From Candidatus Poseidoniales archaeon (GTDB lineage: Archaea; Thermoplasmatota; Poseidoniia; Poseidoniales; Poseidoniaceae), in contig QXYC01000011.1 in assembly GCA_009887095.1 (NCBI GenBank), positions 1 through 64,000 on the forward strand: a DNA stretch of 64,000 nt, written 5' to 3'. Positions 31,352 through 55,109 of the stretch are shown here, piece after piece (positions within the stretch are counted from its first letter, which is position 1; each line of letters begins with the position of its first letter). A model generated the notes under the pieces. It saw only the letters and a program-made list of their open reading frames with translations, was not told the origin of the DNA and did not search any database. Position numbers and translations under genes: made by a program.

Positions 31352-32728
31352 ATGAAAACAAGAGCGTTTCTGGTCTGTTCCGTGGAGACAGAGGAAGGCA
31401 ATGCAGAAGCGCTCGACGCCGATGCTGCCCGCTTGAATGAACTTGCATCCGTTGATGCATCCTTGGTAGGCCTCTTACGCACCCTTCTCTCGTTCAAAAC
31501 CCTCCCACATTTACTCGGCCTTGTTGTGTTTTCGAGTGTATTTTACGCCCTGGCAGACGGATCAGCAGGCTTTGCAGCAATTGGGTTTACATCCCTCGCA
31601 GTCGGTTATGCTGCCACGGCTGTCCTCTCCAACATCGAGGGCGTAAAATCGTGGACACTCTTGCAACCTTGGGGCGAAAACCGCCCAACACTCCAGAAGC
31701 GACTGTTGTTGAGTTCTCGGATTCTCGCCCTGCCGTTCGGCTTGGCCATCGCCTTCGCAGTGGCCTTCATTGCTCTGACGACTGAATCTGCCTCAGACTG
31801 GCTCGCCTTGGGGCTCGCAGGATTGTTTGTCCTTTGGGCCGTAGCACAAGGGCGCTCGTTTGCAGGATGGGCATCCTCCATCGCAGCACGCAAGAGTCCA
31901 CAGCCCGCTCCAAAATCTGGCAATGGATACGTGGCCTTAACCACCCTTTTTGGCATTGTAATCGCCTTTGGATTGGTTTGCATAACGGCCTATTCTTCCC
32001 TCCATGCGGCAAGCATCACCCTACAACCTAAAACAGTCGACATGGTTGTGTTCACAGGGATCGCCATCGCCGCATTTGTGCTGATGAACACCATCACATG
32101 GAAGGAACGAGGGCTTGCCATGGCCGACAAAGCTCTTCGCAGGTTCCATTTTCGATGGTCGTTGTTGATTCACCTGTTTGTCACATGGCATTTGCTCACC
32201 GTCTACCGCCACGCAGCAATGAATCCAGGCACCATCGAGGTGTACATCGAAGAGGTTGCTCTAATGATGTTCACGGTGTTCATGGGCATTTGGTCCCTCA
32301 CATCCCGGGGCTATGGCTCTGAACTCAAATTGCTCAATACGAATAATGCACTTCCATGGGGCCTCGCCTTTGGCTACGCGTACGCTGGAAGCGTTGCGAT
32401 GATCAGTTCGGTGGTTGAAGACTTCCAAACGGTGATGATGGTTGGCCACATGATCGCTTCGGCGACTGGAATTTGGATGCATCGTTCTGTGTTGAAGACC
32501 TTGCTTGTGCGCCATGATGAAACCATTGAGATTCAACGCATCGTCAAGGAGATCGAACCATCGGTAGGCGGTCTGGAGGCAACGCCGGAAAACGATACCG
32601 AACCTTCACCCGCACCGGCGGGCCAGGACGATTGGGATGGCGACTTGAACAACGATTGGGATGCGCCGAAGGACATTGGCCTCCAAGCAGAAGTTGAATG
32701 GGAAGACGTCATCAACATTGAGGACTAA
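31352..32728 (+). CDS. Multi-pass membrane protein with acidic C-terminal tail
   Basis: This protein has 458 residues from the ATG at 31352 (MKTRAFLVCS); the frame is open further upstream, but that would overlap the divergent gene. About ten hydrophobic helices occupy residues 50-390, some carrying histidines (for example LIHLFVTWHLLTVYRHA). The last 70 residues are acidic and Trp/Asp-rich (DDWDGDLNNDWD). I do not recognise a family; it is possibly a 7-to-10-helix sensor or transporter. Its stop overlaps the stop of the convergent FtsZ-family gene by 4 bases. Confidence 0.6.
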   Translation: MKTRAFLVCSVETEEGNAEALDADAARLNELASVDASLVGLLRTLLSFKTLPHLLGLVVFSSVFYALADGSAGFAAIGFTSLAVGYAATAVLSNIEGVKSWTLLQPWGENRPTLQKRLLLSSRILALPFGLAIAFAVAFIALTTESASDWLALGLAGLFVLWAVAQGRSFAGWASSIAARKSPQPAPKSGNGYVALTTLFGIVIAFGLVCITAYSSLHAASITLQPKTVDMVVFTGIAIAAFVLMNTITWKERGLAMADKALRRFHFRWSLLIHLFVTWHLLTVYRHAAMNPGTIEVYIEEVALMMFTVFMGIWSLTSRGYGSELKLLNTNNALPWGLAFGYAYAGSVAMISSVVEDFQTVMMVGHMIASATGIWMHRSVLKTLLVRHDETIEIQRIVKEIEPSVGGLEATPENDTEPSPAPAGQDDWDGDLNNDWDAPKDIGLQAEVEWEDVINIED

Positions 32729-33642
32729 TCGGAAGGCTTGATCCCTGCCAACAAGGTCACGACACGAATGGTGTCTTCGAGGTCTTCACTCACCCGAGCG
32801 CCAAGAATAACTTGAGCATCTGCATCGAGTGCGTCTGTGAAGATGTTTGCCACGGTATCCACTTGGCCAATCGTCATGCCCAGACCACCTTCAACTTGGA
32901 TTAAACAAGCGCTTGCACCACCCACATCCAAAGCCGACAGGGGAGCCATCATGGCCGACTGAAGAATCGACTCGGGGTCATCTGGACGCCCCGTGCCCAC
33001 AAGCATGGTTGCTTCGCCTTCTTGGTCCACAATGGCACGAAGGTCCATCAAATCCAAATTGATTAAGCCCATTCGCATCAAGGTGCGAACAAGCCCATCG
33101 ACGAGATCTTCAATCCACTCGGCACCCATTTGCCAATTTTGGCCCTGTTGCCTCGCTTGGCGGGCCAAACGGTCAAGCGACAAACGAACGGTTACATGGG
33201 CAACATGCTGAAGGCGTTCAAGACCAGACGTTGCAATTTCGGTGCGGGTTTCCTGCACTTCGAACGGCATGGCTGCCACGGCGAGCACCAGCGCACCTGA
33301 TTGACGGGCCTGACGAGCGAATTCATGCGCTGCACCGGTCCCTGTCCCACCGCCCAAACCAGTCAGCAAGATCACCAATTCAACTGGTTCAAGAATGGTG
33401 TTGGCAAGCGCTGTATAGCCCCGCATGCGTTGTTCAGCGAGGGGAGGAAGTGCAGCACAGCCCACCGAATCTAGGGTGTGACCGAGCCGGAGAACATGCG
33501 CACTTCCTGCGTCGACGAAACTTTCGTCATCGGCATCGATGAGCAGCACATCAGTCTCACTCGAGCAACGCTTTTTTGCGCCCTTGGCCCAAGCACAACC
33601 AAGTCCACCAACCCCTGCGATGAGGATTTGGTCTGCATCCAT
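32725..33642 (-). CDS. ftsZ: FtsZ-family tubulin homologue (short form)
   Basis: This 305-residue GTPase has the tubulin/FtsZ signature GGGTGTG at residues 97-103, the N-terminal ILIAGVGGLG nucleotide loop, and the T7-loop acids NLDLMD (Asn195, Asp197, Asp200) needed for GTP hydrolysis between subunits. The C-terminal sheet ends RVVTLLAGI, and the protein stops there, so the long linker and conserved peptide that tether FtsZ to membrane partners are absent. It may be the division FtsZ or a paralogue (FtsZ-like or CetZ-like). The ATG at 33642 follows GAAGG by 7 bases. A longer frame to 33738 would overlap the TPR gene and has no counterpart in the family. Confidence 0.82.
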   Translation of the reverse strand: MDADQILIAGVGGLGCAWAKGAKKRCSSETDVLLIDADDESFVDAGSAHVLRLGHTLDSVGCAALPPLAEQRMRGYTALANTILEPVELVILLTGLGGGTGTGAAHEFARQARQSGALVLAVAAMPFEVQETRTEIATSGLERLQHVAHVTVRLSLDRLARQARQQGQNWQMGAEWIEDLVDGLVRTLMRMGLINLDLMDLRAIVDQEGEATMLVGTGRPDDPESILQSAMMAPLSALDVGGASACLIQVEGGLGMTIGQVDTVANIFTDALDADAQVILGARVSEDLEDTIRVVTLLAGIKPSD

Positions 33643-33695
33643 GACATGGCCTTCACACGATGCCAAATGAACTTTGGCGATAGGGGCGACGAGGT

Positions 33696-33989
33696 TCACA
33701 CATAGCGCAGGTAACGGCGTCGAGCATCTCGGGCCCACGCATTATCTGGCTCGATGGCTAAAACTCGGTCGTAGTATTCGATGGCCGTCTCAAATTCAGA
33801 GAGGTGTCGCCCGTAGAGATGCCCGAGGTTTGACAGAACAGGAATGCACGACTCATCTGCCTCAAGCATCGAAAGCAGCAATCGCTCGGCTGCTCCCAGA
33901 TCGTTTCGGAGCATCATCTCTTCTGCATTGTCGAGTTGCTCGAGTTGCTCCGTGGACAAATCATATGTGTTTTCAAAATTCGTCGACAT
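33696..33989 (-). CDS. TPR-repeat protein
   Basis: This 97-residue helical protein has two tetratricopeptide-type units: LDNAEEMMLRNDLGAAERLLLSMLEADE, and LSNLGHLYG..SEFETAIEYYDRVLAIEPDN with the W/L/G/Y/A/P pattern of the motif. It lies 53 bases upstream of the FtsZ-family gene on the same strand. A role as an adaptor for division or the cytoskeleton is possible, but only position suggests it. Confidence 0.72.
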   Translation of the reverse strand: MSTNFENTYDLSTEQLEQLDNAEEMMLRNDLGAAERLLLSMLEADESCIPVLSNLGHLYGRHLSEFETAIEYYDRVLAIEPDNAWARDARRRYLRYV

Positions 33990-34179: not shown

Positions 34180-34216
34180 GGCCCACACGGGTCGGTTCAA
34201 TCACTTGGGTGAGGCT

Positions 34217-35035
34217 ATGCTACGCGGGTCAATTTCTTCACGGACCGGACTGGTTGCCGGGCTCATCCTTTTGTTGCTCTTGCCGGGGCTTGTTACCTCC
34301 TATCATACGGGCATCGGCGGCGAACAAAGCAACGCCGGTGAAACGATTGATGATGTGGCCAAGGAAGGCTGTTTGTGCCACAACGGAGCATCGGACAATT
34401 CAGTTCAAGTCATCCTTGATGATGTGCCTTACGGATGGGTCGGCGGTGAAACTTACACCATGACGCTCCAGTTAATCGGCGGACCAAGCGCCACTGGCAC
34501 GTACACTGCTGGCTTTGCAATGCGAGTCTCCACGGGTGTGCTCGGCGGCGAAGAAGTCCAAAACTGGGAAGAAGACCCAACATCCCTCACTCACACCGAA
34601 GCCTCATCCGTTGGAGCCGAACGCCATTGGGTCATCACCTGGCAAGCACCAGCAACCGGCGAAGGCACCGTGAACTTCTGGATCACCGGCAACTCAGTCA
34701 ACGGCGACCAACTCCCCGGTGTAGAGGACAAGTGGAATCAACTCCTCTTCGCCCTCCCTGAAGGCGACGATACAACCGATGCTCTTGGCACCCGAACCCT
34801 GTTCGCCGGCGACGGAAACGTCAGCCCTCCTGAACCAAGCCACCACGGCGTTGACCTCCATCACATGGGAGCAAAACTCCGAGCACACTGGCTTGGTTTG
34901 CTTGGATTCGGTGCGGTGCTTGCAGTGGTTGCCTTCGCTGGATTCCTGCTCCGATACAGCTTCTCCACTTCCTACAAGGGTCGAAGTAACCAACTGAGGC
35001 TTCGGTACAAACTAATGCGCAGAGGTGACCAGTGA
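34217..35035 (+). CDS. Membrane-anchored protein with CxCH motif, reeler/choice-of-anchor V-like
   Basis: This 272-residue protein starts at the ATG at 34217, preceded by GGTGAGG. It has a signal peptide (GLVAGLILLLLLPGLVTS). The exported domain starts with EGCLCHNGASD, contains GETYTMTLQL and a VITWQAPATGEGTVNFWITGN stretch, and resembles the choice-of-anchor V/reelin-like domain, whose members usually have CxxCH for covalent haem. Here the spacing is CxCH. A membrane helix (LGLLGFGAVLAVVAFAGFLL) and a basic cytoplasmic end follow. It leads the Rieske/cytochrome b operon and overlaps the next gene (TGATG), so it may be an extracytoplasmic subunit or electron acceptor. That is inference. Confidence 0.7.
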   Translation: MLRGSISSRTGLVAGLILLLLLPGLVTSYHTGIGGEQSNAGETIDDVAKEGCLCHNGASDNSVQVILDDVPYGWVGGETYTMTLQLIGGPSATGTYTAGFAMRVSTGVLGGEEVQNWEEDPTSLTHTEASSVGAERHWVITWQAPATGEGTVNFWITGNSVNGDQLPGVEDKWNQLLFALPEGDDTTDALGTRTLFAGDGNVSPPEPSHHGVDLHHMGAKLRAHWLGLLGFGAVLAVVAFAGFLLRYSFSTSYKGRSNQLRLRYKLMRRGDQ

Positions 35036-35478
35036 TGGACGATACAATTTCCACCCTTCTCCGAGGCGTAGCAAAAGGCACCATCAGTGTGGATGATGCC
35101 CGCAAGGCGCTCGAGAACGCTTCGCTCACCGAAGAAGAAATGGAATCCGCCATCGATCATGGCGTGTTCAACATCGCTGAACCGGGCACCATCGTCAGCG
35201 CCTCACTCGCGCCGTCTGGAGGCTCATACCTCACCATGCTGTTCTTCGTATGGGGTATCTTCTGGTCGTGCTATTGGGTCTTTTCAATGATTTATGGTCT
35301 TGCCAAAGGATGGGACCAACAACAACTCGCCTACCACCTTGCGCTCATGCTCGTCACCTTGTGCATGATGGGCATGGTTTACCTCAAATTCGTCTTGCCT
35401 GACACCATCATCGTCAAGCACGCTCAGAACAAGTTTGTTCCTGAGCACACCAAAGATTGGAAGGAGTACAAGTGGTGA
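35035..35478 (+). CDS. Small two-helix membrane subunit of the Rieske/cytochrome b operon
   Basis: This protein has 147 residues from the ATG at 35035, which overlaps the previous stop and has AGAGGTGA just upstream. A helical soluble head (DDARKALENASLTEEEMESAI) precedes two hydrophobic helices (YLTMLFFVWGIFWSCYWVFSMI and LALMLVTLCMMGMVYLKFVL) and a charged end (HTKDWKEYKW). There is no haem or Fe-S motif. I do not recognise a family. Tight packing with the Rieske gene (6-base gap) suggests a structural subunit of the same complex. Confidence 0.65.
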   Translation: MDDTISTLLRGVAKGTISVDDARKALENASLTEEEMESAIDHGVFNIAEPGTIVSASLAPSGGSYLTMLFFVWGIFWSCYWVFSMIYGLAKGWDQQQLAYHLALMLVTLCMMGMVYLKFVLPDTIIVKHAQNKFVPEHTKDWKEYKW

Positions 35479-35484
35479 TCCATC

Positions 35485-36330
35485 ATGGCACGTGAATACG
35501 ACCTCAAACCAGCACCAAGCGATGCAGCTTCGGTGGCCGAAGCCAGCGGCTCGTTCATCAACCGACGCCAATTCCTCCGCTATGGATTCAACACCGCAAC
35601 TGGTGTGTTCGCCGCATCTCTTGGCGTTCTTGGATTCGCAGCGATTCTTTTGCCACCTGGCGGCAGCACTGGGGGCGACCTCGGCGTAGTGTTCTGGGCA
35701 AAGGGCCGAGAAGACGAAGCATGGTACGGCGCAAAGCATCTGCAACTCATGACGAAGACTGACTTTGTCGAGGAAGCAGCAAAATCCAACACAGGAACCG
35801 CCGGAGCTTCCGGCATTTGGAACGGCGTTCCTGTCGTGGTCAATTACGTCAACCACTCCGAAAACAAAAACACTCCTGAATCAAGCGGACTTGCTCGCTT
35901 CCAATTCATGGAAGGCGTTGACGAGACTGGAAAAACGATTGGTCACTTCGAAGACTTGAGCGACCAAGACCCCCGTATCTTCCCATCCGAAGACCTTGTC
36001 ATGATTTTTGGCCGGTGCACACACTTGTGCTGCATCCCAGGATGGCAACTCGTCTCGAACTCGTTCACTGAAGACTCGTGGACGCCCGGCGGCGGTGACG
36101 ATGGCGGAACCAAACTGTTCTGCATCTGTCACTCATCCCGATTCGACCCAACGGCTCTGGAAATGAACACCAACCGAAACCGCTCAAATGGTGCGACATT
36201 CAATTACGCAGGAATCCGCAAGGCAGGTGGCCCTGCTCCAGTCGGTCTCCCACTGATCCCAATACAACTCAACGGTGATGTCATCGAAGGCATCACTGAC
36301 TACATCGATTGGTACACATACTGCGACTGA
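35485..36330 (+). CDS. Rieske [2Fe-2S] protein of a cytochrome bc-type complex
   Basis: This 281-residue protein has an N-terminal RRQFLRYG (twin-Arg-like) before a membrane anchor (about residues 38-58). Box I is CTHLCC (Cys178, His180, Cys183), and box II is CICHSS (Cys213, Cys215, His216). Both cluster ligands and both disulfide cysteines are present. The usual Gly in box I (CTHLGC) is Cys182 here. The protein passes electrons from quinol at the cytochrome b Qo site to an external acceptor. An insertion of about 100 residues before box I is longer than in b6f-type Rieske proteins. It is followed 9 bases later by the cytochrome b gene. Confidence 0.93.
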   Translation: MAREYDLKPAPSDAASVAEASGSFINRRQFLRYGFNTATGVFAASLGVLGFAAILLPPGGSTGGDLGVVFWAKGREDEAWYGAKHLQLMTKTDFVEEAAKSNTGTAGASGIWNGVPVVVNYVNHSENKNTPESSGLARFQFMEGVDETGKTIGHFEDLSDQDPRIFPSEDLVMIFGRCTHLCCIPGWQLVSNSFTEDSWTPGGGDDGGTKLFCICHSSRFDPTALEMNTNRNRSNGATFNYAGIRKAGGPAPVGLPLIPIQLNGDVIEGITDYIDWYTYCD

Positions 36331-36339
36331 GGTGATACA

Positions 36340-37206
36340 ATGACAACAATGTTCTGGATTCTTTGGTTCTTCATCGCTTTCGTCATCGTCCTTGTGGCGC
36401 TGACCCTCCGCAAGGAAAACGACGACCTGCCTCGTCGTGAAATCCTCCGTGCGGTTGAATCAACCGGTAAAATGGGTTTTGCTGAACGGTTGTTCTTGTG
36501 GATTTTCTCTTGGCTTGACACTCGTTTCCGCCTTCAGGACTACTGGAACATGTCAAAAGGCGCCTATTACAACATGCACCGCCAAATGCCACTGACACAC
36601 GCTGAAAAGTACAAGCTCCGTATCATTTGGTATTGGTACCCCCTGTACTGCCTCGGTGGCATATCCTTCCTTTCGTTCATCATTCTCGTGATCACTGGAA
36701 CAGTGCTTGGTATCTACTATGTCCCTGGTGGCGAAGGCGATCCATCACCTGCTTACGCAAGCATGCAATTCATCATGACCGAACTTCCCTTCGGTTACAT
36801 CATCCGAGCTGTCCACCATTGGGCGACGCACTTCATGGTGGCAAGCGTCTTCTTACACATGTGCCGGGTTTACTTTACCGGTGCGTACCGAAACCCTCGT
36901 GAACTCAACTGGCTCATCGGTGTGGCATTGATGGCCCTCACCATTGTCTTTGGTTACTCAGGCTACCTCCTTCCGTGGGATTCGCTGGCCTACGGTGCTG
37001 CTGTGATTGGAATCAACCTTGCGAACTCAAGCCCGCTTGTCGGAAAGTATGTCGCAACCTTGCTGTTCAGCGGCTCATCCCTAACACCTCGGACCGTGAC
37101 ACGAATGTACTTCATTCACGTCTTCATTCTCCCCGTGATTGTGACCACTTTGATCATTATTCACTTGTTTATTGTATGGGTACAAGGCATTGCGGAGCCA
37201 CATTGA
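36340..37206 (+). CDS. Cytochrome b, N-terminal (b6-like) subunit
   Basis: This 288-residue integral membrane protein has an additional N-terminal helix before the standard four-helix b6 core. Haem ligands are His159 and His173 (helix B, spacing 14) and His260 and His275 (helix D, spacing 15). The 15-spacing in helix D is the b6-type arrangement. The core also has GTVLGIYYVP and GYSGYLLPWDSLAYGAAVIG, the Qo-side helix motif. It takes part in quinol oxidation and transmembrane electron transfer. The C-terminal half of cytochrome b is in the next gene, 18 bases on. Confidence 0.94.
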   Translation: MTTMFWILWFFIAFVIVLVALTLRKENDDLPRREILRAVESTGKMGFAERLFLWIFSWLDTRFRLQDYWNMSKGAYYNMHRQMPLTHAEKYKLRIIWYWYPLYCLGGISFLSFIILVITGTVLGIYYVPGGEGDPSPAYASMQFIMTELPFGYIIRAVHHWATHFMVASVFLHMCRVYFTGAYRNPRELNWLIGVALMALTIVFGYSGYLLPWDSLAYGAAVIGINLANSSPLVGKYVATLLFSGSSLTPRTVTRMYFIHVFILPVIVTTLIIIHLFIVWVQGIAEPH

Positions 37207-37224
37207 TCTTTGGAGGAATGAATT

Positions 37225-40053
37225 ATGGGACTTATAGAGAACCTAGGACGTGTTGCATCTTCCTACATGGAAGAAAAAGAACAACTCCAGACGGCTGGAG
37301 AAAAGCGTGTGCGCACGCGAACGGGGCATGGCTTCTGGCCACAGGAAGTGCTTCGTGACTCGATTATTTTTGCATTCATGGGCGCTGTTTTGCTCTTCTA
37401 TGCATGGTTAATCCCACCACCACTTCACAGTGCTGCCGACCCGTATGCGCAAGCTGGGTTCGTGTTCCCTGATTGGTACGTGTTGTTTTCCTATGGATAC
37501 CTGCGATGGGGCGAATACCTGCCTCAATTCACGGTACCAACCGGATTCATCGGGGAAATCGTCGGCCAACCAGTGTTCCCATGGAACGCTGCATGGTGGG
37601 GCGCTGCACTCACCGGCATTCCAGTCAGCATCCTCGCACTCCCGCCGTTCCTCGGTGGACGTGAGAAGCGGCCTGTGGAAGATCCGTGGTTCGCCACCGC
37701 TGGTGCGGTTTACTTAGCCCACATTTGGTTCATCTCCGTGTTTTCGATCAACATCTTCCTCGAGTTATATGGCAAAAACAGGTCTGACTATTGTAAGTTA
37801 GACAGCCATGGTGATCTGTTATGTGGAACTCGAGCGCCTTGGTTAGCCGATGCGTTCAATTCGATACCATGGATGATGACGGGTGTTTTGGCGTGGATTT
37901 GTATCTACTTCATCGCCCGTGCCTTGCTCGTCAAGGCATGGGGTGCTGGATTTACTCCTGGCCACGCAAAGCAGATTCTGATTGGATCCCTCCTCATTTC
38001 GACCGCAGGAACCGTTGCTACATGGGACACCTATGACGACGGATTCTGGGACCAAGGGGGTCTGCTGACCATCAAGGGACTCACACATGACCTGTATCCT
38101 GAACTCGAAGCAATGAGGGGACAACCAACCGATGTGCATGTGCACGATGTCAACGAATTCACAGACGAACGTGGATGGAGTGACGACGGAATTGTGCCAA
38201 CCACTGCATGGCTGGATTGGAGCATCTATCAACCGGCTCGTTACATCATCACTGATTTCACCGATTCGAACGGTCACCAAAACGCGACCCTCGGCATCAA
38301 CGCTGCTGCCAATTTCACCTCCTTCAACGGAGGCGATGGTTGGGTCACAGCAGGAACCTTCCTCATCACAGAAGATCAAAGCCACTTCCCAGATGGGCAC
38401 CATGAAAGCATTGAGACAATCACGACGGACCTTGCATGTGAATACCGTGCCTCAGAGCGAAAGATCAACGACATCAACACCGTTACCATGATCTCATCGA
38501 CCATGACCCTCATGGACAGCAATGGTAAGACCGTTGCAAGTTTCGACGATTGCGCTGGTGCAACCCTCGAACTCGCCGTTGGAGAGTACGCATACGAGTA
38601 CACGGTGAGCGTGAACGGAGCCTTGGCTTACAACGACAGCATCATCACCGAAACCTCCTTTGAAATCGCAAGTTTCCAACCATTGCTCGTTTGGACTGAA
38701 GCCGCACCGAAAGCACTTGCCGGACGTACAGTCGACCTTACCAACAGCAGCCAAATGGCCCTCGGTGGAACGGCATACGCCTCGATTGAGAACCCAACAT
38801 ACCACACCAATCCAAAAGCACTCGATGCAAAGTTGACCTATGCAATGTTCATTCCGTGCCTAACCTTTGGTGCCGTTGTGTTCGTGGTCCTCCGCTCAAT
38901 GGCCCGTGGCTATGAGTTCGAGATGAACAAGTGCTACGGCTGTGACCTATGTGACGATGCTTGCCCTGTTCGCCTCTTCAACGGTGGTGACAAACTCAAC
39001 ATCATCTACAACTCATGGAACAATGAAGACGACGGTGTTCCGCTGTATTCGTGTCTGACGTGCACAGCGTGTACCAATGCATGCCCACAGTTGGTGAACT
39101 ACGACTCCTATGTCGACATACGCCGATCCCTCATCGTCGGTGGCCCACAAGCAGAGATCCCTCACACCGTTCTCCAAGCCGTGCTGTCCGCTGAGGCAGA
39201 AGAAGCAGCTGATGACGACTTCATCGCCGTGGAAGACTACCCAATCACCTCGAACATCGGCTACTACCCTGGCTGTGTTGACTACCTCGACCAAGAGATG
39301 GTCTTCTCCCACGTGAACGAGGGCGAGATGAACCTTGGCGACGCAACAACCTCGGCGTTCACCTTGTTTGACGACATGAACGTCGACGTCAACTACCTCG
39401 GCCGAGACTTCCTCAAGTGCTGTGGTCACGACCAGAAGTGGCAAGGCCTCGATGAAGTGTTTGAGAAACTCAAGGCGTACAACCAAAAGAAAATCGAACA
39501 GTCTGGCATCGATACCCTCGTGTCTTCGTGTGCAGAGTGTTTCCGAACCTTCGCTCGAGATTACGAACTTGAAGGCGTCAAGGTCATGCACACCACAGAA
39601 TTCCTCGTGGAGAACGGCTTTGACATGAACCTCAAGGCAGAAGAAGAAACAACGGTCACCTATCACGACCCTTGCCGACTTGGACGTCAAATGGGCGTTT
39701 ACGAAGAACCTCGTGAACTCATTGCAGGCGTTGAAGGCGTTGAAATCGTCGAGATGGAACACAGCGGCGAAGACGCCATGTGCTGTGGTGTCTCCAGCAT
39801 GATGTCATGCAACGAAAACGCCCGAGCACTCCGTGTCACACGCATGGAAGAAATCCGAGCCACTGGTGCTGACACCATGTTGACCTCTTGCCCGAAGTGC
39901 GTCTCTCACTTTGAGTGCTTGAAGTTCGAAGGCGATGAGCGCTACGCTGACATCGAAATCCTCGACGTCGTATCCTTCCTCGCTCGCCAAGTCGAAGCAA
40001 AGAAGGCGAAAGCAGCAGCGGCAGTGCAACCAAGCACTGGCGTTGAAGCCTGA
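37225..40053 (+). CDS. Cytochrome b C-terminal half fused to HdrD-like CCG iron-sulfur protein
   Basis: The protein has 942 residues. Residues 38-240 are subunit IV-like: FWPQEVLRDSIIFAF, the Qo motif PDWY (82-85) in place of PEWY, and several helices. A further helix lies at about 250-267. Residues about 270-535 form a hydrophilic, probably external, domain. A membrane helix at about 535-558 returns the chain to the cytosol. Then come two [4Fe-4S] motifs, CYGCDLCDDACP (from 570) and CLTCTACTNACP (from 610). Two complete CCG domains follow, with CCG near 732 and 852 and CAEC/CPKC after them, as in HdrD, GlcF and LldE. The predicted topology puts the iron-sulfur half inside. By analogy it moves electrons between quinone and a cytosolic flavoprotein or thiol partner. 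The partner is not encoded here. Confidence 0.9.
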   Translation: MGLIENLGRVASSYMEEKEQLQTAGEKRVRTRTGHGFWPQEVLRDSIIFAFMGAVLLFYAWLIPPPLHSAADPYAQAGFVFPDWYVLFSYGYLRWGEYLPQFTVPTGFIGEIVGQPVFPWNAAWWGAALTGIPVSILALPPFLGGREKRPVEDPWFATAGAVYLAHIWFISVFSINIFLELYGKNRSDYCKLDSHGDLLCGTRAPWLADAFNSIPWMMTGVLAWICIYFIARALLVKAWGAGFTPGHAKQILIGSLLISTAGTVATWDTYDDGFWDQGGLLTIKGLTHDLYPELEAMRGQPTDVHVHDVNEFTDERGWSDDGIVPTTAWLDWSIYQPARYIITDFTDSNGHQNATLGINAAANFTSFNGGDGWVTAGTFLITEDQSHFPDGHHESIETITTDLACEYRASERKINDINTVTMISSTMTLMDSNGKTVASFDDCAGATLELAVGEYAYEYTVSVNGALAYNDSIITETSFEIASFQPLLVWTEAAPKALAGRTVDLTNSSQMALGGTAYASIENPTYHTNPKALDAKLTYAMFIPCLTFGAVVFVVLRSMARGYEFEMNKCYGCDLCDDACPVRLFNGGDKLNIIYNSWNNEDDGVPLYSCLTCTACTNACPQLVNYDSYVDIRRSLIVGGPQAEIPHTVLQAVLSAEAEEAADDDFIAVEDYPITSNIGYYPGCVDYLDQEMVFSHVNEGEMNLGDATTSAFTLFDDMNVDVNYLGRDFLKCCGHDQKWQGLDEVFEKLKAYNQKKIEQSGIDTLVSSCAECFRTFARDYELEGVKVMHTTEFLVENGFDMNLKAEEETTVTYHDPCRLGRQMGVYEEPRELIAGVEGVEIVEMEHSGEDAMCCGVSSMMSCNENARALRVTRMEEIRATGADTMLTSCPKCVSHFECLKFEGDERYADIEILDVVSFLARQVEAKKAKAAAAVQPSTGVEA

Positions 40054-40154: not shown

Positions 40155-41066
40155 ATGAAGAAAATCGACATCAAGTGGAAGGCAGAATTGATGACCAGTC
40201 AGAAGGGAAAGACGGCCATCGTCACAGGATCCAACACTGGCATTGGTTACCACATGGCCTTAGCACTGGCAGACAAGGGCGCAATGGTGGTGCTTGCTTG
40301 CCGGAACCTCGACAAAGCAGAAAAAGCGCGAGCCAAGATGATGACAACATCACCTGATGCTCAGATTAAAATTGAGGAACTCGATTTAGCAAACCTTGCG
40401 AGCGTCGATGCCTTTGGAAAACGAATGGCAGAGAACCACGGTTGCGTGGACATCCTCATTAACAATGCAGGCGTGATGATTCCACCCCAATCCACAACTT
40501 CAGATGGCTTTGAACTACAAATTGGAACGAACCATTTTGGCCATTTCGCTCTTACATCCCACTTAATGCCGCTTCTTTCTGCAGCAAAGCATCCGAGGGT
40601 GGTCACCCTTTCCAGCATCGCCCACTGGGCGGGTCGAATTGACCTTGCGGACATCAATGGCCAGAAGAAGAAATACGACAAGTGGGGGATGTACAGCCAA
40701 AGTAAACTTGCCAATCTTCTCTTTGCTCTTGAACTCGATCGGCGCCTCAAAAGAGCAGGGTCACACATTGAATCATTTGGCAGCCACCCTGGTTATTCAA
40801 ACACCGATCTACAGAGGTATTCAATCGCATGGCGTTGCTTGAATCCACTGTTTGGCATGAAGGCAGTGAAGGGTGCGGCCCCCACATTGTATGCGGCCAC
40901 CCACCCCGATGCCACTCAGCACAGATATTGGGGGCCGATTGGTCTCTTGGAAGCACGTGGATGGACGGGGAAGGCGAAAATCACACCTCGAGCAGCTGAT
41001 GAGGAAATGGCCCGTCAATTATGGGAACACACCGAAGCAGTCACCGGAATCAAGTTTCAACTTTGA
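40155..41066 (+). CDS. Short-chain dehydrogenase/reductase (retinol dehydrogenase-like)
   Basis: This 303-residue SDR has the cofactor loop TGSNTGIG near residue 26, NNAGVM, and the catalytic YSQSK with the upstream Ser in TLSSIAHWAG. The CRNLDKA segment after the second strand suggests NADP preference. The layout matches the retinol dehydrogenase/WW-oxidoreductase group, which acts on lipophilic alcohols or ketones. The ATG at 40155 was chosen; a second Met 12 residues later is possible. It follows the cytochrome b-HdrD gene by 101 bases. Confidence 0.88.
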   Translation: MKKIDIKWKAELMTSQKGKTAIVTGSNTGIGYHMALALADKGAMVVLACRNLDKAEKARAKMMTTSPDAQIKIEELDLANLASVDAFGKRMAENHGCVDILINNAGVMIPPQSTTSDGFELQIGTNHFGHFALTSHLMPLLSAAKHPRVVTLSSIAHWAGRIDLADINGQKKKYDKWGMYSQSKLANLLFALELDRRLKRAGSHIESFGSHPGYSNTDLQRYSIAWRCLNPLFGMKAVKGAAPTLYAATHPDATQHRYWGPIGLLEARGWTGKAKITPRAADEEMARQLWEHTEAVTGIKFQL

Positions 41067-41082
41067 TTCGACCTAACATCCA

Positions 41083-41766
41083 TTATTGGTCCCAAACAGA
41101 CTTTCCAGCCGTGCTGGTGTCCTTTTGTCCTGCTGGGACTGCATCCCAAACGCTTGCGCTTGCGGGTGCAGATGGTGAAGTTGACTTTCTTGGTTCTGGA
41201 GTTGTATCCCACACTGTTGAACTGGGAGGAGAAGATGGCATGGGTGGGCTTTCATTTGTGGGCGTTGACATTTGAAACTGTTGTTTGTATGTGGGAAGGC
41301 TGTTGTCGATTCCATGGCTCATGAGGAAGGCGTTGATTTGATCCCTGTATACATCCGATGGGCCATAACTGAGCGACCATGTGTGCGTTGTTCCATCTTT
41401 GAAATTGAAATCAATCCAGCTGTTCATGGCTTCTCCATCATCGCTGCTTGCTTCTCGTCTTTGGACAAGACGGATGTCAGTAAGTTTTCCAAGTTCTTCC
41501 CACGCTGTAGGACGTAAAAAGAACAACCTTCTCTTTTTCAAGACATCAGCCGATGCATCAAGAACGTACTGCTGCCCACAGGTAAGAATAATCGAGAGAA
41601 ACAATGAGATCAAAAAAATCACAAATGCTTCGGGAAGTGCCGAAAAAGTGGCGATAGCGAGGGTTCCAAGAGCATTCCAGTTTGAAATTTTACCTGCGAA
41701 AGTTCGTCCAGTACCTGGATTCAGACCAACAATCAGGTATTGCTCATCTAGTGTGCGAGACTGCAC
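41083..41766 (-). CDS. Membrane protein with PH-like part and triple VWD tail
   Basis: This 227-residue protein is not a recognised family. A hydrophobic hairpin (LPEAFVIFLISLFLSIILTCG, about residues 43-63) is followed by a soluble beta-rich section (RLFFLRPTAWEELGKLTDIRLV, then WIDFNFKDGTTHTWSLSYG) resembling bacterial PH-like domains. The last 65 residues are Pro/Ser/Thr-rich and contain three spaced VWD motifs (STVWDTTP, ASVWDAVP, KSVWDQ at the very end). It lies 15 bases downstream of the giant surface-protein gene on the same strand. Confidence 0.6.
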   Translation of the reverse strand: MQSRTLDEQYLIVGLNPGTGRTFAGKISNWNALGTLAIATFSALPEAFVIFLISLFLSIILTCGQQYVLDASADVLKKRRLFFLRPTAWEELGKLTDIRLVQRREASSDDGEAMNSWIDFNFKDGTTHTWSLSYGPSDVYRDQINAFLMSHGIDNSLPTYKQQFQMSTPTNESPPMPSSPPSSTVWDTTPEPRKSTSPSAPASASVWDAVPAGQKDTSTAGKSVWDQ

Positions 41767-41781
41767 GCTAAAGTCCTCCGT

Positions 41782-44700
41782 TCACTCCTCGTAGACAAGC
41801 CACGAGGATGAAGCTTCATCCCAGTAAGACAGGGTGCCGTCTGCTGCTTTCGACCAGTTTACCCCGCCTTCTTCCCATTGTTGTGCCTCTTCAATCTGAG
41901 GAAGTTCCTTGGATTCGCCGCCAAAGTGCGCTTCAGACATGCTGTCTGCTTGGTTCGCTTCTGCAAAAGCAGAGCCAACTGAAGCCGACCCTTCGTTCCG
42001 CTTCACGACAAGCAGAGCGCCCAAGCCACAAAGAACAAGCAACGCCAAGACTGCGTACATGAGGCCACCGCCGCTTTCCTCTGGCAGAGCCTCGGAACGT
42101 GAAGCATCGAATGGTGCATCGTCGTAGCGGTCTGCGACGCCGTCACCATCTGAATCAAGGGTTTCGTTTGCGTCGAAGATGAAATCGTCCATTTCGTCGT
42201 TCACACCGTCCCCGTCCGTATCAAGTTGGTTGATGGCGCATCCTTCGTCGTTGATCACGGTTTGATTCTCATCCGTACCCTGACAACGGTCGGCGATGTT
42301 GTAGACACCATCGTTGTCGTCATCCTTTTGATATTCAGAACATCCATCAAGGTCTGAACCGTGTCCGAGTGCTGTGTCTCGGCAGAGATCATACGCATCC
42401 TTGATGCCGTCTCCGTCCTGGTCAGTTTGAGTCGTTGAACAACCGTCTGAGTTGACTTGTTCGCCGGCAGGCGTTGCCGGACATAGGTCGACCGTGTTGT
42501 CGATGAGGTCAGCGTCATCGTCGTACTGATCGAGTGAGCAGCCGAGGAGATCTGCTGTTGAAGCAAGGTCTGTGTTCGGACAATCATCGAGGTTGTTGTT
42601 GATGCCGTCGTTGTCATCGTCTCGCTGAGAATCAGAACAACCTGTGTCGTCTGCATCTTCTGTTGAAGGAGTCATGTCGCAGAAGTCATCTGCATCCATG
42701 ACGCCGTCCATGTCTGCGTCTCGCTCGTCTGCTGCACATCCTTGACCGTTCACTGGGAGACCCGGCGATGTTGTTGGGCAATCATCCATATCGTTCGTGA
42801 TGTCATCATTATCGCTGTCAAGTTGTGAATCAGCGCATCCTGCTGCGTCGATGCTTGCACCGAGCGGTGTTTGAGGGCACAAGTCGAACAAATCCATCAC
42901 ACCGTCGTTGTCTGTATCTTCTTGGGATCCAGAGCAACCTGATGCATCGACTGTTTCGCCAGCAGGCGTTGCCGGGCATGCGTCTTGAGCGTTGTTTACT
43001 CCGTCAAGGTCGTCGTCTTTCTGAGAAGCAGCGCAGCCATTCTCATCCACGGATTGACCCGCTGGAGTGTTCAAGCATTGATCTCCACCGTTGCCCATGG
43101 CGTTGTCGCCATAGCCATCATTGTCAGCGTCGGTCCATTGAGTGGCATCTGCAGGGAAATCATCTGCTTCGTTTCCTGTTGGGTTGTCACCATAGCCGTC
43201 ACCGTCTGCATCTGACCACTGCGTGCCGTCAGTTGGGAAAGCATCGGGCGCGGTTCCTGCTTGGTTGTCACCAAATCCATCACCATCTTGGTCGGACCAC
43301 TGGGTTGCGTCGTTGGGGAACGCATCGGCGTTGTTACCGCCTGCGTTGTCCCCATACCCATCACCATCTGCATCTGCCCATTGTGTGGCATCGCTTGGGA
43401 AGGCGTCGGGTTGTGTTCCAGCTGGATTGTCACCAAAGCCATCGCCATCAGCGTCGGCCCATTGAGTCGAATCGTTCGGGAATTGATCCCCGTTCGTACC
43501 CGTCGGGTTGTCGCCGTAGCCATCACCATCTGCGTCAACCCATTGGCTGGGGTCTGTGGGGTAGGCATCTGGATTGTTCCCGGATGACGTATCACCATAG
43601 CCATCACCATCTGCGTCGGACCATTGGGTAGGATCAAGTGGGAATGCGTCGGAGTTGTTGCCAAGTGAGTTGTCACCATAGCCATCACCATCGGCATCCT
43701 CCCATTGTGAACTGTCGGTTGGGAACGCATCTGGGTAATTGCCGTTCGGATTGTCTCCAAAGCCGTCACCATCCATGTCAGAGTACTGACTTGCATCGGT
43801 AGGGAATGCATCCACTGAGTCGTTGTAACCATCGTTGTCGCTGTCTTTCTGAGAGAGTGCGCAGCCATCAATGTCAACAAGTGAACCGGTTGCCGTGTTT
43901 GGGCACAGGTCATCTTCATTCACGACGCCATCATTGTCGTCGTCAAATTCGAGGTTGAAGCATGAACTGTCGCCAATGAGTTGCACATAGGCATCAGAGT
44001 AAAGCAAAACCTCAGCACAATAGGTGCCCGACATAGTGGGCGTGGTGTAAGTAAAGGTTGGTTGGCTCATGTTTTGGGCCGTGGCCGTGAAGTTGAGTTG
44101 CCCTGTTGTTGCAATATTGGCACCTGAAGCATCAGTCACTCGGACGGTGTAGATGTAATCATCACCCGTAACCAAATCAGCGCCTTTCACATCGACGTTG
44201 TTGGTCGAAGCAGTGGAACTGGTGGAATACGAATCAATCAGCATTGTTGGCAGTTGTGGAACGAACAAATCATCATGGAAGCCAATGTAGCCGGAGTTGT
44301 TATCTAAATCCAAAACTGAAGTTGGCTCGTACAGAATACCAACCAGTACGTGATCGTTCATGGTTGTGATCCCGGTCCAGTTGATGGACCAGCTCTCTGA
44401 GGTGGCAGTGGAAGTGAAGTTCACGGTGGCTTCATCAACGATTGAAGCGGCAAGAGCGGCATCGACATCATTGCTCACAGAGTAGTTGTTGATGAATTCG
44501 AGTTCTTCAAAGACAAACCACCACAGGGTGTAGTCTGTGTTGAGCGTCAAGTTTGTAGCGCTGTGCGAACCTGTGGTCGAAGAGAGTGCTGCCGATTGTA
44601 AAACTTCGATGAGGGTACAATCAAAATCATAGGAAAGCGTTCCTGCGGCATCCGTCAACTCCACATCCATGCAGTATTCGGACTCGACCATGATTGGAGA

Positions 44701-45870
44701 AGCGACCGTGGCATTGTTGGTGTAAGTGGTTCCGTTGGCCGTGAAGTTCATTGAGGTCGTTGCCCCTTGGTTGCTGCTACCGTTCAAGAAATACTGAATT
44801 GGTGTCAGCGTGATGGTGTAATTCATTCCAGAGGTGATGCCATCGACTTCAACGGCCGCATTTGTCAATGTTGTTGCTTCAACTGAAACCGTCTCAAAGG
44901 ATTGACCACCGCCTGGCAAATCCGTTGTGATCTCAATCGAGTAGACATTGGTTGCTCCAGTGTACCCATAGACATCAACATATGAGGTTTGATTTGAAAA
45001 TGAAGTGTAAGTCATTGATTCAAGGCTTCCAGTGCTGGTTGAGGAGTCGATGTAAGAACCAGATGCATCGTCCCACCCAACGTCAATATCGCCGTTGGAG
45101 CCAACGAATGTCACATTCACGTAATAGGTCACGCCTGCAAGGAGATTAATTTCAAAGAAATCGACATCTGTTGTGGAATCAATCGAGAGACCCGTGCATG
45201 AAAGTGGGAGGCCAGAAGCCATCGTGGCTGTTGCCGTCGAATCGTTGGGTTCGAGGATATCTGAGGCAAGGGTCCCGTTTCCAGCGCAGTTGCTTGGTGG
45301 AGCGGTCCCATTACCCCCTCCGCCCGAAGAACCAGTGGAGAACAACCAGAAGTCAAGGGTGTAGCTACCATAGCCGTCATAGCGGACGATTTGGAAGAAA
45401 ACCGTACCGCCGTGTGGGCTTGTTGAGGTGTTGGTTGAAACGATCTCAGGATTGTTGCCGATGGAAACCTCAATCAAGTTCATCGACGAGTCATAAATCC
45501 ACAACTCGAAGTCGTTGGTATAGGTTGATCCGTTTGATGATGTGTAGGTCGTATTGTAGGCAATCTGGAGTGTAACACCCTCATTGGCGTTCAATGTCAT
45601 CGAGAACCAATCTTCGTCATCATTGACATCCAATTCCCCGTACAAAGCCCCTGAAGCCATTGGAGCGTTCCCATTCATGTTCAACACGGCTTGGCTGCTG
45701 TTGATTGAGGTCGAATTGTCTGGAAGGTCCATAGCAGAGCCTAAGTCGTTTTGATTTGCGCCAACGGCAGATGCCATTGGGGCCGTCAATGTAACAGATA
45801 CCAGGGCCAATAGAAGCGCTAGAATGCCCGCCGAGAATTTCTTTCGAGCGAGGCCGATGTCGGAGTTCAT
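41782..45870 (-). CDS. Giant surface protein with thrombospondin type-3 repeats
   Basis: The protein has 1362 residues from the ATG at 45870 (MNSDIGLARKK), which gives a good signal peptide (ILALLLALVSVTLTAPMASA). The longer frame to 45987 would overlap the upstream gene. The N-terminal half has pre-peptidase-type and Ig-like beta domains, rich in Asn-x-Ser/Thr. Nine tandem 27-residue calcium-type repeats (DADGDGYGDN..G...DAFP.D.TQW) follow, then about ten longer type-3 repeats with paired cysteines (CPxTPxG..VD..GC). One membrane helix precedes a 75-residue tail ending in a Trp-rich element (NWSKAADGTLSYWDEASSSW). Probably a long, calcium-stiffened adhesion protein. Confidence 0.8.
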   Translation of the reverse strand: MNSDIGLARKKFSAGILALLLALVSVTLTAPMASAVGANQNDLGSAMDLPDNSTSINSSQAVLNMNGNAPMASGALYGELDVNDDEDWFSMTLNANEGVTLQIAYNTTYTSSNGSTYTNDFELWIYDSSMNLIEVSIGNNPEIVSTNTSTSPHGGTVFFQIVRYDGYGSYTLDFWLFSTGSSGGGGNGTAPPSNCAGNGTLASDILEPNDSTATATMASGLPLSCTGLSIDSTTDVDFFEINLLAGVTYYVNVTFVGSNGDIDVGWDDASGSYIDSSTSTGSLESMTYTSFSNQTSYVDVYGYTGATNVYSIEITTDLPGGGQSFETVSVEATTLTNAAVEVDGITSGMNYTITLTPIQYFLNGSSNQGATTSMNFTANGTTYTNNATVASPIMVESEYCMDVELTDAAGTLSYDFDCTLIEVLQSAALSSTTGSHSATNLTLNTDYTLWWFVFEELEFINNYSVSNDVDAALAASIVDEATVNFTSTATSESWSINWTGITTMNDHVLVGILYEPTSVLDLDNNSGYIGFHDDLFVPQLPTMLIDSYSTSSTASTNNVDVKGADLVTGDDYIYTVRVTDASGANIATTGQLNFTATAQNMSQPTFTYTTPTMSGTYCAEVLLYSDAYVQLIGDSSCFNLEFDDDNDGVVNEDDLCPNTATGSLVDIDGCALSQKDSDNDGYNDSVDAFPTDASQYSDMDGDGFGDNPNGNYPDAFPTDSSQWEDADGDGYGDNSLGNNSDAFPLDPTQWSDADGDGYGDTSSGNNPDAYPTDPSQWVDADGDGYGDNPTGTNGDQFPNDSTQWADADGDGFGDNPAGTQPDAFPSDATQWADADGDGYGDNAGGNNADAFPNDATQWSDQDGDGFGDNQAGTAPDAFPTDGTQWSDADGDGYGDNPTGNEADDFPADATQWTDADNDGYGDNAMGNGGDQCLNTPAGQSVDENGCAASQKDDDLDGVNNAQDACPATPAGETVDASGCSGSQEDTDNDGVMDLFDLCPQTPLGASIDAAGCADSQLDSDNDDITNDMDDCPTTSPGLPVNGQGCAADERDADMDGVMDADDFCDMTPSTEDADDTGCSDSQRDDDNDGINNNLDDCPNTDLASTADLLGCSLDQYDDDADLIDNTVDLCPATPAGEQVNSDGCSTTQTDQDGDGIKDAYDLCRDTALGHGSDLDGCSEYQKDDDNDGVYNIADRCQGTDENQTVINDEGCAINQLDTDGDGVNDEMDDFIFDANETLDSDGDGVADRYDDAPFDASRSEALPEESGGGLMYAVLALLVLCGLGALLVVKRNEGSASVGSAFAEANQADSMSEAHFGGESKELPQIEEAQQWEEGGVNWSKAADGTLSYWDEASSSWLVYEE
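43060..43790 (-). repeat. Nine tandem 81-bp units encoding calcium-binding repeats
   Basis: Inside the surface-protein gene, the motif GYGD or GFGD recurs nine times at 27-codon spacing, with conserved Asp ladders and a closing QW. Units differ at many third positions, so they are old or actively diversified rather than freshly copied. Confidence 0.8.
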
Positions 45871-45916
45871 GGCATAGCCAGTGCATGCCTGCTTATCAGC
45901 ATCTCGCCGAAGGGGC

Positions 45917-46156
45917 TCAAATGGCCGTTGGTGCAACATGCCCATCTTGTTTGTCATCTGGCTTGCGAACCCTTGACCAAACGCCACCCATCAATTCATC
46001 GTGATGGATGGTGCAATAGTGGAAACGTCGATATGCTTCTCTGAATGAGTAGGCTTTCTTTCCTGTTGCAACAAGGTAGCCTTCAGGCGAGAGTCGAGAG
46101 ACAATCGTTCCCTCTCCACCACAGCCTGGAAAATCGCACACTGCCGCTCCGCCCAT
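45917..46156 (-). CDS. Small Cys/His (probably zinc-binding) protein
   Basis: This protein has 79 residues from the ATG at 46156 (MGGAAVCDFPGC). The frame is open up to 46270, but the extra 38 residues have no domain character. Paired CDFPGC and CTIHHDE motifs could bind one zinc, with GYLVATGKKAYSFREAYRRFHY between them. I do not recognise the family. It lies between the biotin carrier gene and the giant surface protein on the same strand. A TTG start at 46165 is also possible. Confidence 0.5.
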   Translation of the reverse strand: MGGAAVCDFPGCGGEGTIVSRLSPEGYLVATGKKAYSFREAYRRFHYCTIHHDELMGGVWSRVRKPDDKQDGHVAPTAI

Positions 46157-46238
46157 ACACAAAGTCAAACACTGACACCTCTTTAATGGTCGTACATGAC
46201 CGGCACTATGAAGATCATTTGAGTGCATGAAATGAGCG

Positions 46239-46646: not shown

Positions 46647-46650
46647 TCAT

Positions 46651-46845: not shown

Positions 46846-46854
46846 ACTAAAACC

Positions 46855-48408: not shown

Positions 48409-48488
48409 AGGCTTCCCTACCCCTCGGACTGAAAAGACGCCCTTATGCGTTGCCACTCAAGGACCGCCTAAGAGGCGAACTTCCAACC

Positions 48489-49016: not shown

Positions 49017-49035
49017 GGTGAGTGCATTGCAAGCA

Positions 49036-50551: not shown

Positions 50552-50614
50552 AACGAACCATAGCCCTCAATATGTTCAAATGATGGTGTCGGGTGGCCAA
50601 GATTGGTGACGTCA

Positions 50615-50725: not shown

Positions 50726-50776
50726 ACATAACCGACCTGCATGGATTGAAGAAGGGCGAGCCTTCGACCCTACATT

Positions 50777-53790: not shown

Positions 53791-54492
53791 GTGGCCACAC
53801 CACTTCGCCCGACCATGCACAGGGCATGGGTGTACATCCTGACCATTGTCGTTGGCCTCTGGGTTTCGGCAACGGCGGCCGGTGGACTCCTCACATTCAT
53901 TCTACCACCAGAGTGGCCGGTCAATGTCTGGTGTTGGGGCCTCTTTGCTTACATCTATGCAAAGGGGACCCGAAAAACCCGCATCGAAATGATCACCGTT
54001 GTTGCGTTTGCAACACCGATGGAATTATTCTTCAGCGAAGTCTGGGGAATTTACGAATACCAACGGGGCCTCATGCCACTTTTTGTTCCAGCGGGCCACT
54101 ACTTCCTCTTCGACCTCGGGCGTATGATGGCTGAGAAAATGAAGGAGGCATGGGCGCTTCCATCGCTGATGCCGTTCGTGCCTGTCGTCGCCTATGGAGC
54201 GTACACGGGCGGCGATACTTCAGCAGTTGTGTTGCTCATTCTTGTGTTGGTGTTCACAAAATACGGACCTCAACCAAGGCTCTATGCGGCCATGGCATGG
54301 GCGGCACTTGGTATGGAAATCATTGGAACTCAGTTAGGGAATTGGACTTGGGCTGCGTCCGTACCATGGACGGGACTTACTGCTTGGAACCCACCACTCC
54401 TCGTCGGAGCGTTCTACTGCTTTGGCGATCTTTTGGTCAACATGGCTGTCGTCAAGTTTGAAGAGCATGACCTCGTGGAGGAAACTGCATGA
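53791..54492 (+). CDS. Multi-pass membrane protein of unknown function
   Basis: This 233-residue protein has about seven hydrophobic helices. Conspicuous segments are ILPPEWPVNVWCWGLFAYIYA, ATPMELFFSEVWGIYEYQ and GNWTWAASVPWTGLTAWNPP, rich in Trp and with acidic residues inside helices, which suggests an enzyme or transporter. I do not recognise the family. The GTG at 53791 directly follows the gshA stop; an ATG at 53815 is the alternative. It overlaps the ferredoxin gene by 4 bases. Confidence 0.6.
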   Translation: MATPLRPTMHRAWVYILTIVVGLWVSATAAGGLLTFILPPEWPVNVWCWGLFAYIYAKGTRKTRIEMITVVAFATPMELFFSEVWGIYEYQRGLMPLFVPAGHYFLFDLGRMMAEKMKEAWALPSLMPFVPVVAYGAYTGGDTSAVVLLILVLVFTKYGPQPRLYAAMAWAALGMEIIGTQLGNWTWAASVPWTGLTAWNPPLLVGAFYCFGDLLVNMAVVKFEEHDLVEETA

Positions 54493-54821
54493 CCTCCTCG
54501 GACGAGCTGAAAAAGCGCAGAGAGGCGGAGGCCTTGCGCATTCGCAGTTCCCTCAACAGGCAACGGGGTGAACAACATGCAGCGGCCAAGGGCGGCGAGA
54601 CAGCCGTGGCGTTTGTCGAAGAGCGCCTCTGCATCGGTTGCGACCAATGCACCATTGTCTGTGATGATGATGCGATTGATCTCTACAAAGTCGCAATGGC
54701 AAGCCCACTCATCAAAGTTGAATCGAATCGAAAGGCGAGAATCATTCGTGATGCTTGCACTGGATGTCGCTTGTGCGTCTTGGCATGCCCAACCGACGCC
54801 ATCACCATGATTGACCGTTAA
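54489..54821 (+). CDS. 2[4Fe-4S] ferredoxin-like protein
   Basis: This 110-residue protein has a charged N-terminal helix (DELKKRREAEALRIRSSLNRQ) and two cluster motifs: CIGCDQCTIVC followed by DD, and CTGCRLCVLACP. Cys spacing fits two [4Fe-4S] clusters as in RnfB-type or polyferredoxin modules. The first motif lacks the Pro after the fourth Cys. It has no membrane anchor and is sandwiched between two membrane-protein genes, so it may be the cytosolic electron carrier of a small membrane redox unit. Confidence 0.82.
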   Translation: MTSSDELKKRREAEALRIRSSLNRQRGEQHAAAKGGETAVAFVEERLCIGCDQCTIVCDDDAIDLYKVAMASPLIKVESNRKARIIRDACTGCRLCVLACPTDAITMIDR

Positions 54822-54833: not shown

Positions 54834-55109
54834 ATGTCCAAAAAAGGAAAAGATGACACGGCGCAGCGTTTTGGTGGAGAGTTTGGTCCATACAGAAAAG
54901 AAGGGACGCCCGGCGTGACCCTTGGCACGTTCAAAACCCTCGTGTGGACTTCGAACATTGGCGGTTTGCTGATCCTTGTCATCGCCCTTGAGATGATGTT
55001 CGTGCGTCAGATGTTTGGCTGGGGACTTGCCTGCACGGTGCTTGCCGTTGCCGTTGCCATGTTCCCATCAAACTACGAAATCGTTGGAATGGAAGAGCCC
55101 ACCGAATAG
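54834..55109 (+). CDS. Small two-helix membrane protein
   Basis: This 91-residue protein starts at ATG 54834 with GGAGG upstream. A soluble start (GGEFGPYRKEGTPGVTLGTF) precedes two hydrophobic helices (VWTSNIGGLLILVIALEMMFV and WGLACTVLAVAVAMF) and a short acidic end. The family is unknown. It is the last gene of the asnB-gshA run and is convergent with gdhA; the 124 bases between them (55110-55233) hold nothing I can support. Confidence 0.6.
   Translation: MSKKGKDDTAQRFGGEFGPYRKEGTPGVTLGTFKTLVWTSNIGGLLILVIALEMMFVRQMFGWGLACTVLAVAVAMFPSNYEIVGMEEPTE

Follow-up and report, generated by a model that had tools for sequence, protein, structure and literature searches.

In marine archaea of the Poseidoniales, subunit IV of a b6f-type Rieske/cytochrome b complex continues, in the same polypeptide, into an iron-sulfur module with two CCG domains. 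The fused gene is the last of five genes transcribed in the same direction (34205-40053, plus strand; intergenic spacings of -4 to 18 bases) in the 64,000-nucleotide stretch of DNA analysed here, referred to below as the window. Judging from gene content, the best explanation of this operon is a Rieske/cytochrome b complex of the b6f type to which a cytosolic electron port is covalently joined. We propose tentatively, giving it somewhat less than an even chance, that the Fe-S/CCG module takes electrons from reduced ferredoxin and hands them on, by way of heme c_i or the Qi site, to menaquinone, with a Q cycle operating on top.

That the fusion might be an artefact of assembly or gene calling is scarcely credible, as the same frame recurs in more than 100 distinct sequences and in a one-contig genome. 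The preliminary description of this DNA had kept a join error in view. We rejected it: the entire fusion occupies one open frame in 52 of 60 genomes by row count, the window's own among them, and the 151 frames of 900 aa or longer found across the fetched loci represent 110 distinct sequences. The one-contig genome (G061, locus L116) likewise argues against a misjoin, and the fusion is also found in three assemblies (L047, L060 and L113) that are, by their names, apparently single-cell. As to the rest of the 60, in seven the gene is fragmented, cut by a contig end or missing from an incomplete genome, and in one (G040) it is read as two frames on one contig. In one genome (G047, contigs C4 and C47) b6 and the beginning of the fusion each occur twice, possibly through duplication or a mixture of strains.

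The features of the operon and of the fusion protein are collected in Table 1. The uninterrupted frame of the preliminary description, with its PDWY motif, external domain, return helix, two [4Fe-4S] motifs and two full CCG domains, is borne out, and so is the assignment of its first part to b6f-type subunit IV. A profile of the N-terminal 240 residues recovers b6f subunit IV (2e74_B, E 7e-6) and, in bc1 cytochrome b, the C-terminal half (E ~1e-5), both aligned through P[D/E]WY. The domain pair expected at first, Cytochrom_B_C plus CCG, is only half visible to Pfam, which finds two CCG domains (3.5e-23) and one 4Fe-4S dicluster domain in the 942-aa fusion and no match to Cytochrom_B_C; subunit IV is seen by the profile only. 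All 18 Fe-S cysteines (eight for cubane clusters, ten in the CCG domains) and the PDWY motif are invariant across 35 sequences, and in fold the Fe-S half resembles EtfD, LutA and HdrB (Foldseek). The number of helices and the topology of subunit IV make it likely that the Fe-S/CCG domains lie on the cytosolic side. The idea that cytosolic electrons reach a Rieske/cytochrome b complex is upheld, as an idea, the branched or confurcating mechanism of the preliminary description being hypothetical.

Table 1. Features of the operon, of the fusion protein and of the ferredoxin locus in the window.
Feature	Position	Strand	Basis or remark
Choice-of-anchor V protein, membrane-anchored, operon gene 1	34205..35035	+	NCBIfam NF041895, E 2.9e-23
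Small two-helix membrane protein, DUF7318-like	35032..35478	+	PF24002, E 1.7e-4, under Pfam cut-off
Rieske [2Fe-2S] protein, CTHLCC ... CICHSS	35485..36330	+	TIGR01416, E 2.7e-9; motifs
Cytochrome b6-type protein	36340..37206	+	phmmer: b6f cytochrome b6 E 8e-44, bc1 cytochrome b ~1e-28
Fusion protein: subunit IV, external domain, dicluster [4Fe-4S], CCG-CCG	37225..40053	+	Single 942-aa open frame
Subunit IV part, residues 1-180	37225..37764	+	Profile search; PDWY invariant
PDWY Qo motif	37468-37479	+	Within subunit IV part
Poseidoniales-specific insertion, residues ~181-536: helix pair and external GOLD-like beta domain	37765..38832	+	Absent from G184 and G190 homologues; model, Foldseek
Return transmembrane helix to cytosol, residues 537-558	38833..38898	+	Structure model, helix prediction
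Two [4Fe-4S] motifs, HdrC-like dicluster: C570/573/576/580, C610/613/616/620	38920..39090	+	PF13183, PF13187; all Cys invariant
CCG domain 1, complete Hdr-type set C684, C732-C733, C769, C772	39274..39540	+	Invariance; signature comparison
CCG domain 2, complete set C817, C853-C854, C889, C892	39673..39900	+	PF02754; invariance
2[4Fe-4S] ferredoxin, orthologue of fusion-adjacent gene in other lineages	54489..54821	+	14.6 kb from fusion
Small two-helix membrane protein adjoining ferredoxin	54834..55109	+	Similar proteins in other lineages

The anatomy first given needs one amendment: a segment of ~355 residues (181-536), which includes an extra helix pair and conserved cysteines (Cys190/200 and 405/443), proves to be an insertion that other lineages lack. 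Its external domain (~355-490) is modelled by AlphaFold as a beta-sandwich with a pLDDT of ~90, within a single-chain model that has an overall pLDDT of 69 and a pTM of 0.44 and is of low confidence in the membrane and dicluster parts. Foldseek relates the domain, with weak scores, to GOLD-like beta sandwiches; its identification as a cytochrome f or copper domain is unsupported. A module-free subunit IV in another genome (G181; L247, 4994-6733) carries a different insertion of its own, of more than 200 residues, at about the same site.

The b6-type protein encoded just upstream of the fusion, a much closer match to b6f cytochromes b6 of known structure than to bc1 cytochromes b, has both heme-b histidine pairs, putatively H159/H173 and H260/H275 as assigned from histidine position and spacing, with a 15-residue spacing in helix D that is a mark of b6f. 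Its Cys104 falls at the b6f heme c_i position: YCLGG aligns to FYCLGG of 1vf5, the cysteine of which holds heme c_i in b6f. No cytochrome f was seen among the operon genes; the anchor V protein has GCxCH and not CxxCH. This GCxCH, kept in ~94% of 69 relatives, differs from the standard CxxCH, and to judge from the motif the protein could bind an unusual heme c or some other cofactor and act as a partner of the Rieske protein. Its gene occupies the same operon position in MGII and in presumed MGIII (the latter denotes family f3; the labels MGIII, MGIIa and MGIIb are our own attributions), and the DUF7318-like gene is conserved in operons of MGII, presumed MGIII and G195. Outside the operon, an FtsZ/tubulin-family gene (32725-33738, minus strand) lies upstream, at a position kept in both MGII families sampled, and the stretch 41782-45987 (minus strand) encodes a secreted-looking protein of 1401 aa with many Asp-rich DxDGDG repeats and a C-terminal membrane anchor.

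By signature and tree placement, the Fe-S half of the fusion belongs with HdrA-associated HdrBC proteins and not with EtfD or GlcF. In a tree of the CCG proteins in hand, midpoint-rooted for drawing only, the fusions group with the stand-alone CCG genes of presumed MGIII in one clade (100/99), the neighbours of which are Hdr proteins encoded beside HdrA/MvhD genes (100/99 for the whole); EtfD-like and GlcF-like proteins fall elsewhere. The fusion and the HdrA/MvhD-linked Hdr proteins have in common the signature CCGHD...C[AP]EC...CCGV...CPKC, instead of which the EtfD-type protein of this genome has CSGDS...CPHC. On signature and tree we rejected an EtfD or GlcF origin of the module. HdrD and HdrBC likewise combine a dicluster [4Fe-4S] part with two complete CCG domains, and the module's nearest tree neighbours are of this kind; their partner, however, is HdrA or a NarI-type cytochrome b (HdrE), whereas the Poseidoniales module sits on a Rieske-type b6/subunit IV pair.

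These comparisons bear on the notion, which we judge improbable, that the module is an EtfD- or GlcF-like port for a flavoprotein, be it ETF or a 2-hydroxyacid dehydrogenase. Of the PDB structures, EtfD (9ojn) matches the CCG half best; it too is a membrane-bound quinone reductase that contains dicluster and CCG domains, and it hands ETF electrons to menaquinone (PMC13083937). Yet its distinguishing marks (a different, NarI-type membrane domain, an incomplete CCG1 and the CPHC histidine cap) are all absent from the fusion, which groups apart from EtfD-like and GlcF-like proteins, and the genome encodes an EtfD-type protein separately. This second CCG protein (L149, 5781-7817; G000, contig C19) has a multi-helix membrane part together with CSGDS and CPHC, features by which it is probably an ETF:quinone reductase. 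The operon contains no ETF, GlcD or similar flavoprotein gene, and neither the fusion nor the scanned operon genes contain an NAD(P)/FAD oxidoreductase domain. The donor class, for which the preliminary description suggested ETF, GlcD or Hdr partners, can be narrowed, ferredoxin being the conserved partner.

Under the criteria published with the structure of EtfD, which has lost one CCG cysteine and caps the cluster with a histidine (PMC13083937), the cysteine pattern of the fused CCG pair makes it a complete Hdr type: both domains of all fused forms have the full five-cysteine set, bridging positions included. This completeness, along with the placement of the module next to Hdr proteins encoded beside HdrA/MvhD genes, would suit a catalytic thiol/disulfide site as in HdrB/HdrD, where a small thiol or protein disulfide is coupled to quinone with ferredoxin as co-substrate. 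We regard such catalysis as quite unlikely: it has no known substrate here, and in the two-gene lineages CCG1 is degenerate, so catalysis would be dispensable family-wide. The degeneration takes two forms, CSG for CCG (G064 and G062) and CAEG for CAEC (G060 and G427), observed at L145 (6484-7371), L146, L144 and L249, and the sequences suggest that the catalytic-type cluster was lost repeatedly in these lineages.

A new finding of this study is that ferredoxin is the conserved gene neighbour in four module-bearing lineages, a fifth having an HdrA/MvhD-like gene. In presumed MGIII (L145), a 279-aa ferredoxin-like protein is encoded directly after the CCG gene. Its C-terminal half, used as query, matched 38 of 40 relatives, nearly all of them with a 2[4Fe-4S] ferredoxin that is mostly near the fusion. 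A same-strand ferredoxin gene lies downstream in all 14 of the loci L151-L164 (midpoint 173-572 bp away), and most other loci of the window's family have a convergent one within 0.5-2.4 kb. The next gene in G184, a member of another class, encodes a multi-cluster ferredoxin; in G427, b6 and a subunit IV that carries the dicluster are succeeded by the CCG part as a gene of its own, then by a 2[4Fe-4S] ferredoxin and a small protein of two helices. Small membrane proteins similar to the one adjoining the window's ferredoxin follow ferredoxin in presumed MGIII, G184 and G427. Apart from the five genes of the complex, the ferredoxin is the one family that the MGII and presumed-MGIII neighbourhoods of our sample have in common.

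The account first given needs a second amendment, concerning the partner: in the window, the ferredoxin that usually adjoins such operons lies 14.6 kb away. Among the Poseidoniales loci fetched whose downstream sequence runs to 2.5 kb or more, those lacking a ferredoxin are the ones of the window's own subclade. Set against L040, where the ferredoxin block comes directly after the fusion on the other strand, the block (window 40155-54489) is inverted in this subclade, and the displacement apparently results from a rearrangement inverting the neighbouring block. An HdrA/MvhD-like gene takes ferredoxin's place only in G190 and G195. An HdrA partner in Poseidoniales was considered and dropped: an HdrA-like query from G190 had no match in 40 relatives, a set without positive control, and the FlpD family, which is related to the HdrA partner, is absent from 9/9 Poseidoniales tested, with methanogen controls matching.

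The survey of relatives covered one phylum, presumably Thermoplasmatota, and returned both two-gene and module-free arrangements. Separate genes for the two halves, which the preliminary description would have counted against the fusion, exist in presumed MGIII and G427. They do not refute it, because the halves adjoin in one operon (at L145 they overlap by 4 nt) and fusion is standard in Poseidoniales. A related subunit IV free of the module is found in seven genomes (G163, G173, G181, G187, G197, G212 and G222), its frame closing with a tail of the kind YEFNLNRTYYKVR at the point where fused proteins go on with YEF.LN.CY.C..C. No frame of five module-free loci of 12-13 kb each (L243-L247) contains CxxCxxCxxxCP. 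Six of the seven genomes make up one clade (100/100), with G212 outside. The c_i cysteine is absent in five of those six (helix A was read in five) and retained in G212, while nearly all module-bearing complexes have it; G064 is an exception, with the module but without the cysteine. On these comparisons the module, the ferredoxin gene and the c_i cysteine tend to go together, the c_i link amounting to roughly a single evolutionary event, to which there are exceptions either way. We discarded the idea that the cysteine correlates independently with the module, since the genomes with neither form a single clade. The existence of intermediates (subunit IV alone, subunit IV with dicluster, the same with a separate CCG gene, and the full fusion) renders the idea of a port testable.

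A match to the POR family (2-oxoacid:ferredoxin oxidoreductase type) is present in 13/13 genomes, 12 of them above the family cut-off, and NuoF, the NADH-binding subunit of complex I, in 2/13; for this reason electrons are probably carried largely as reduced ferredoxin. One could envision a 2[4Fe-4S] ferredoxin, reduced for example by 2-oxoacid:ferredoxin oxidoreductase, docking on the Fe-S/CCG module, whose clusters would deliver electrons to heme c_i at Cys104 of b6 or straight to the quinone-reducing Qi site. Menaquinol, on the assumption that menaquinone is the quinone, would form at Qi and be oxidised at the PDWY-bearing Qo site. One electron would then go to the Rieske protein and an oxidase, and the second would return across the hemes b to Qi, so that ferredoxin electrons would enter the Q cycle. 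The result would be a ferredoxin:quinone reductase inside complex III, much as proposed for plant b6f in cyclic flow, possibly through heme c_i (PMC5683061). We infer, rather than demonstrate, both the direction of electron flow and the donor.

We favour this inward route because the fusion is kept intact in so many genomes with its Fe-S cysteines invariant, because ferredoxin adjoins it and module-free loci are devoid of the cluster motif, because POR is universal and NuoF rare among the 13 genomes, because nearly all module-bearing complexes have the c_i-position cysteine, because the HdrA-type alternative was not seen in the Poseidoniales tested and because of the plant proposal. Several points weigh against it. 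Gene neighbourhood does not prove docking, and gene order in MGII is generally conserved. The route also looks wasteful, since more protons could be pumped if complex I were to oxidise the ferredoxin; an argument of this type is used in the anammox paper against the inward direction of the complexes described there (PMC12954380). A simple wire would need less than a complete Hdr-type CCG pair, the c_i correlation reduces to about a single event with G212 and G064 as exceptions, and the single-chain model is weakest in the membrane and dicluster parts.

An identical parts list would suffice for the opposite direction, in which menaquinol is bifurcated, one electron going to Rieske and oxygen and the other leaving by the hemes b, c_i and the Fe-S module towards ferredoxin or another low-potential cytosolic acceptor. 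The nearest architecture described, that of the anammox b6f-like complexes whose NAD(P) oxidoreductases are cytoplasmic, is interpreted in this way (PMC12954380). We nevertheless hold outward flow to be unlikely. With POR-family proteins in all 13 genomes, a heterotroph of this kind already produces reduced ferredoxin; driving electrons from menaquinol to ferredoxin demands more than driving them to NAD(P); and a PDWY motif is, according to the literature, characteristic of low-potential chains (PMC6349771).

The anammox Rieske/cytochrome b complexes (Kuste4569-4574 and Kustd1480-1485) are also the closest precedent for the complex proposed here. Like it they are b6f-like, with b6 and subunit IV, and possess a cytoplasmic Fe-S redox module and a heme c on the negative side; unusual electron routing has been proposed for them as well (PMC12954380). 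Their module, however, is an NAD(P) oxidoreductase with FAD, carried on a separate subunit and accompanied by multiheme cytochromes c (PMC12954380), whereas in Poseidoniales, which are marine archaea, an HdrBC-type CCG module is fused to subunit IV and a ferredoxin gene goes with it. The plant and cyanobacterial b6f shares b6, subunit IV, the c_i-position cysteine and ferredoxin as suggested donor at Qi (PMC5683061), but has no covalent Fe-S module, and the Poseidoniales operon for its part has no visible cytochrome f gene. We found no description of a Rieske/cytochrome b complex with an Hdr or CCG fusion in the open-access literature; publication elsewhere is possible. It is tempting to speculate, with a confidence that stops short of the halfway mark, that a widespread class of archaeal complex III serves as a ferredoxin:quinone (or thiol:quinone) oxidoreductase in which a Q cycle and an Hdr module are merged. 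One enzyme would then serve both low-potential cytosolic electrons and quinol, and the question of ferredoxin re-oxidation in some aerobic archaea would have its answer.

In surface waters of the ocean, members of Marine Group II rank among the most abundant archaea. Should ferredoxin feed their complex, 2-oxoacid oxidation by ferredoxin-dependent enzymes would be joined to respiration in organisms mostly without the NADH-binding part of complex I, and the long-debated role of b6f as a ferredoxin:quinone reductase would acquire a genetically fused counterpart. A survey of 2019 noted cytochrome b and Rieske genes, but no canonical bc1 genes, in most MGII; it described complex III as "MGII-specific" and listed an orphan RnfB-like iron-sulfur protein (PMC6336850). 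To judge from its N-terminal profile, the fusion supplies the subunit IV missed in that survey, and the fusion or its ferredoxin may also be the source of the RnfB-like match.
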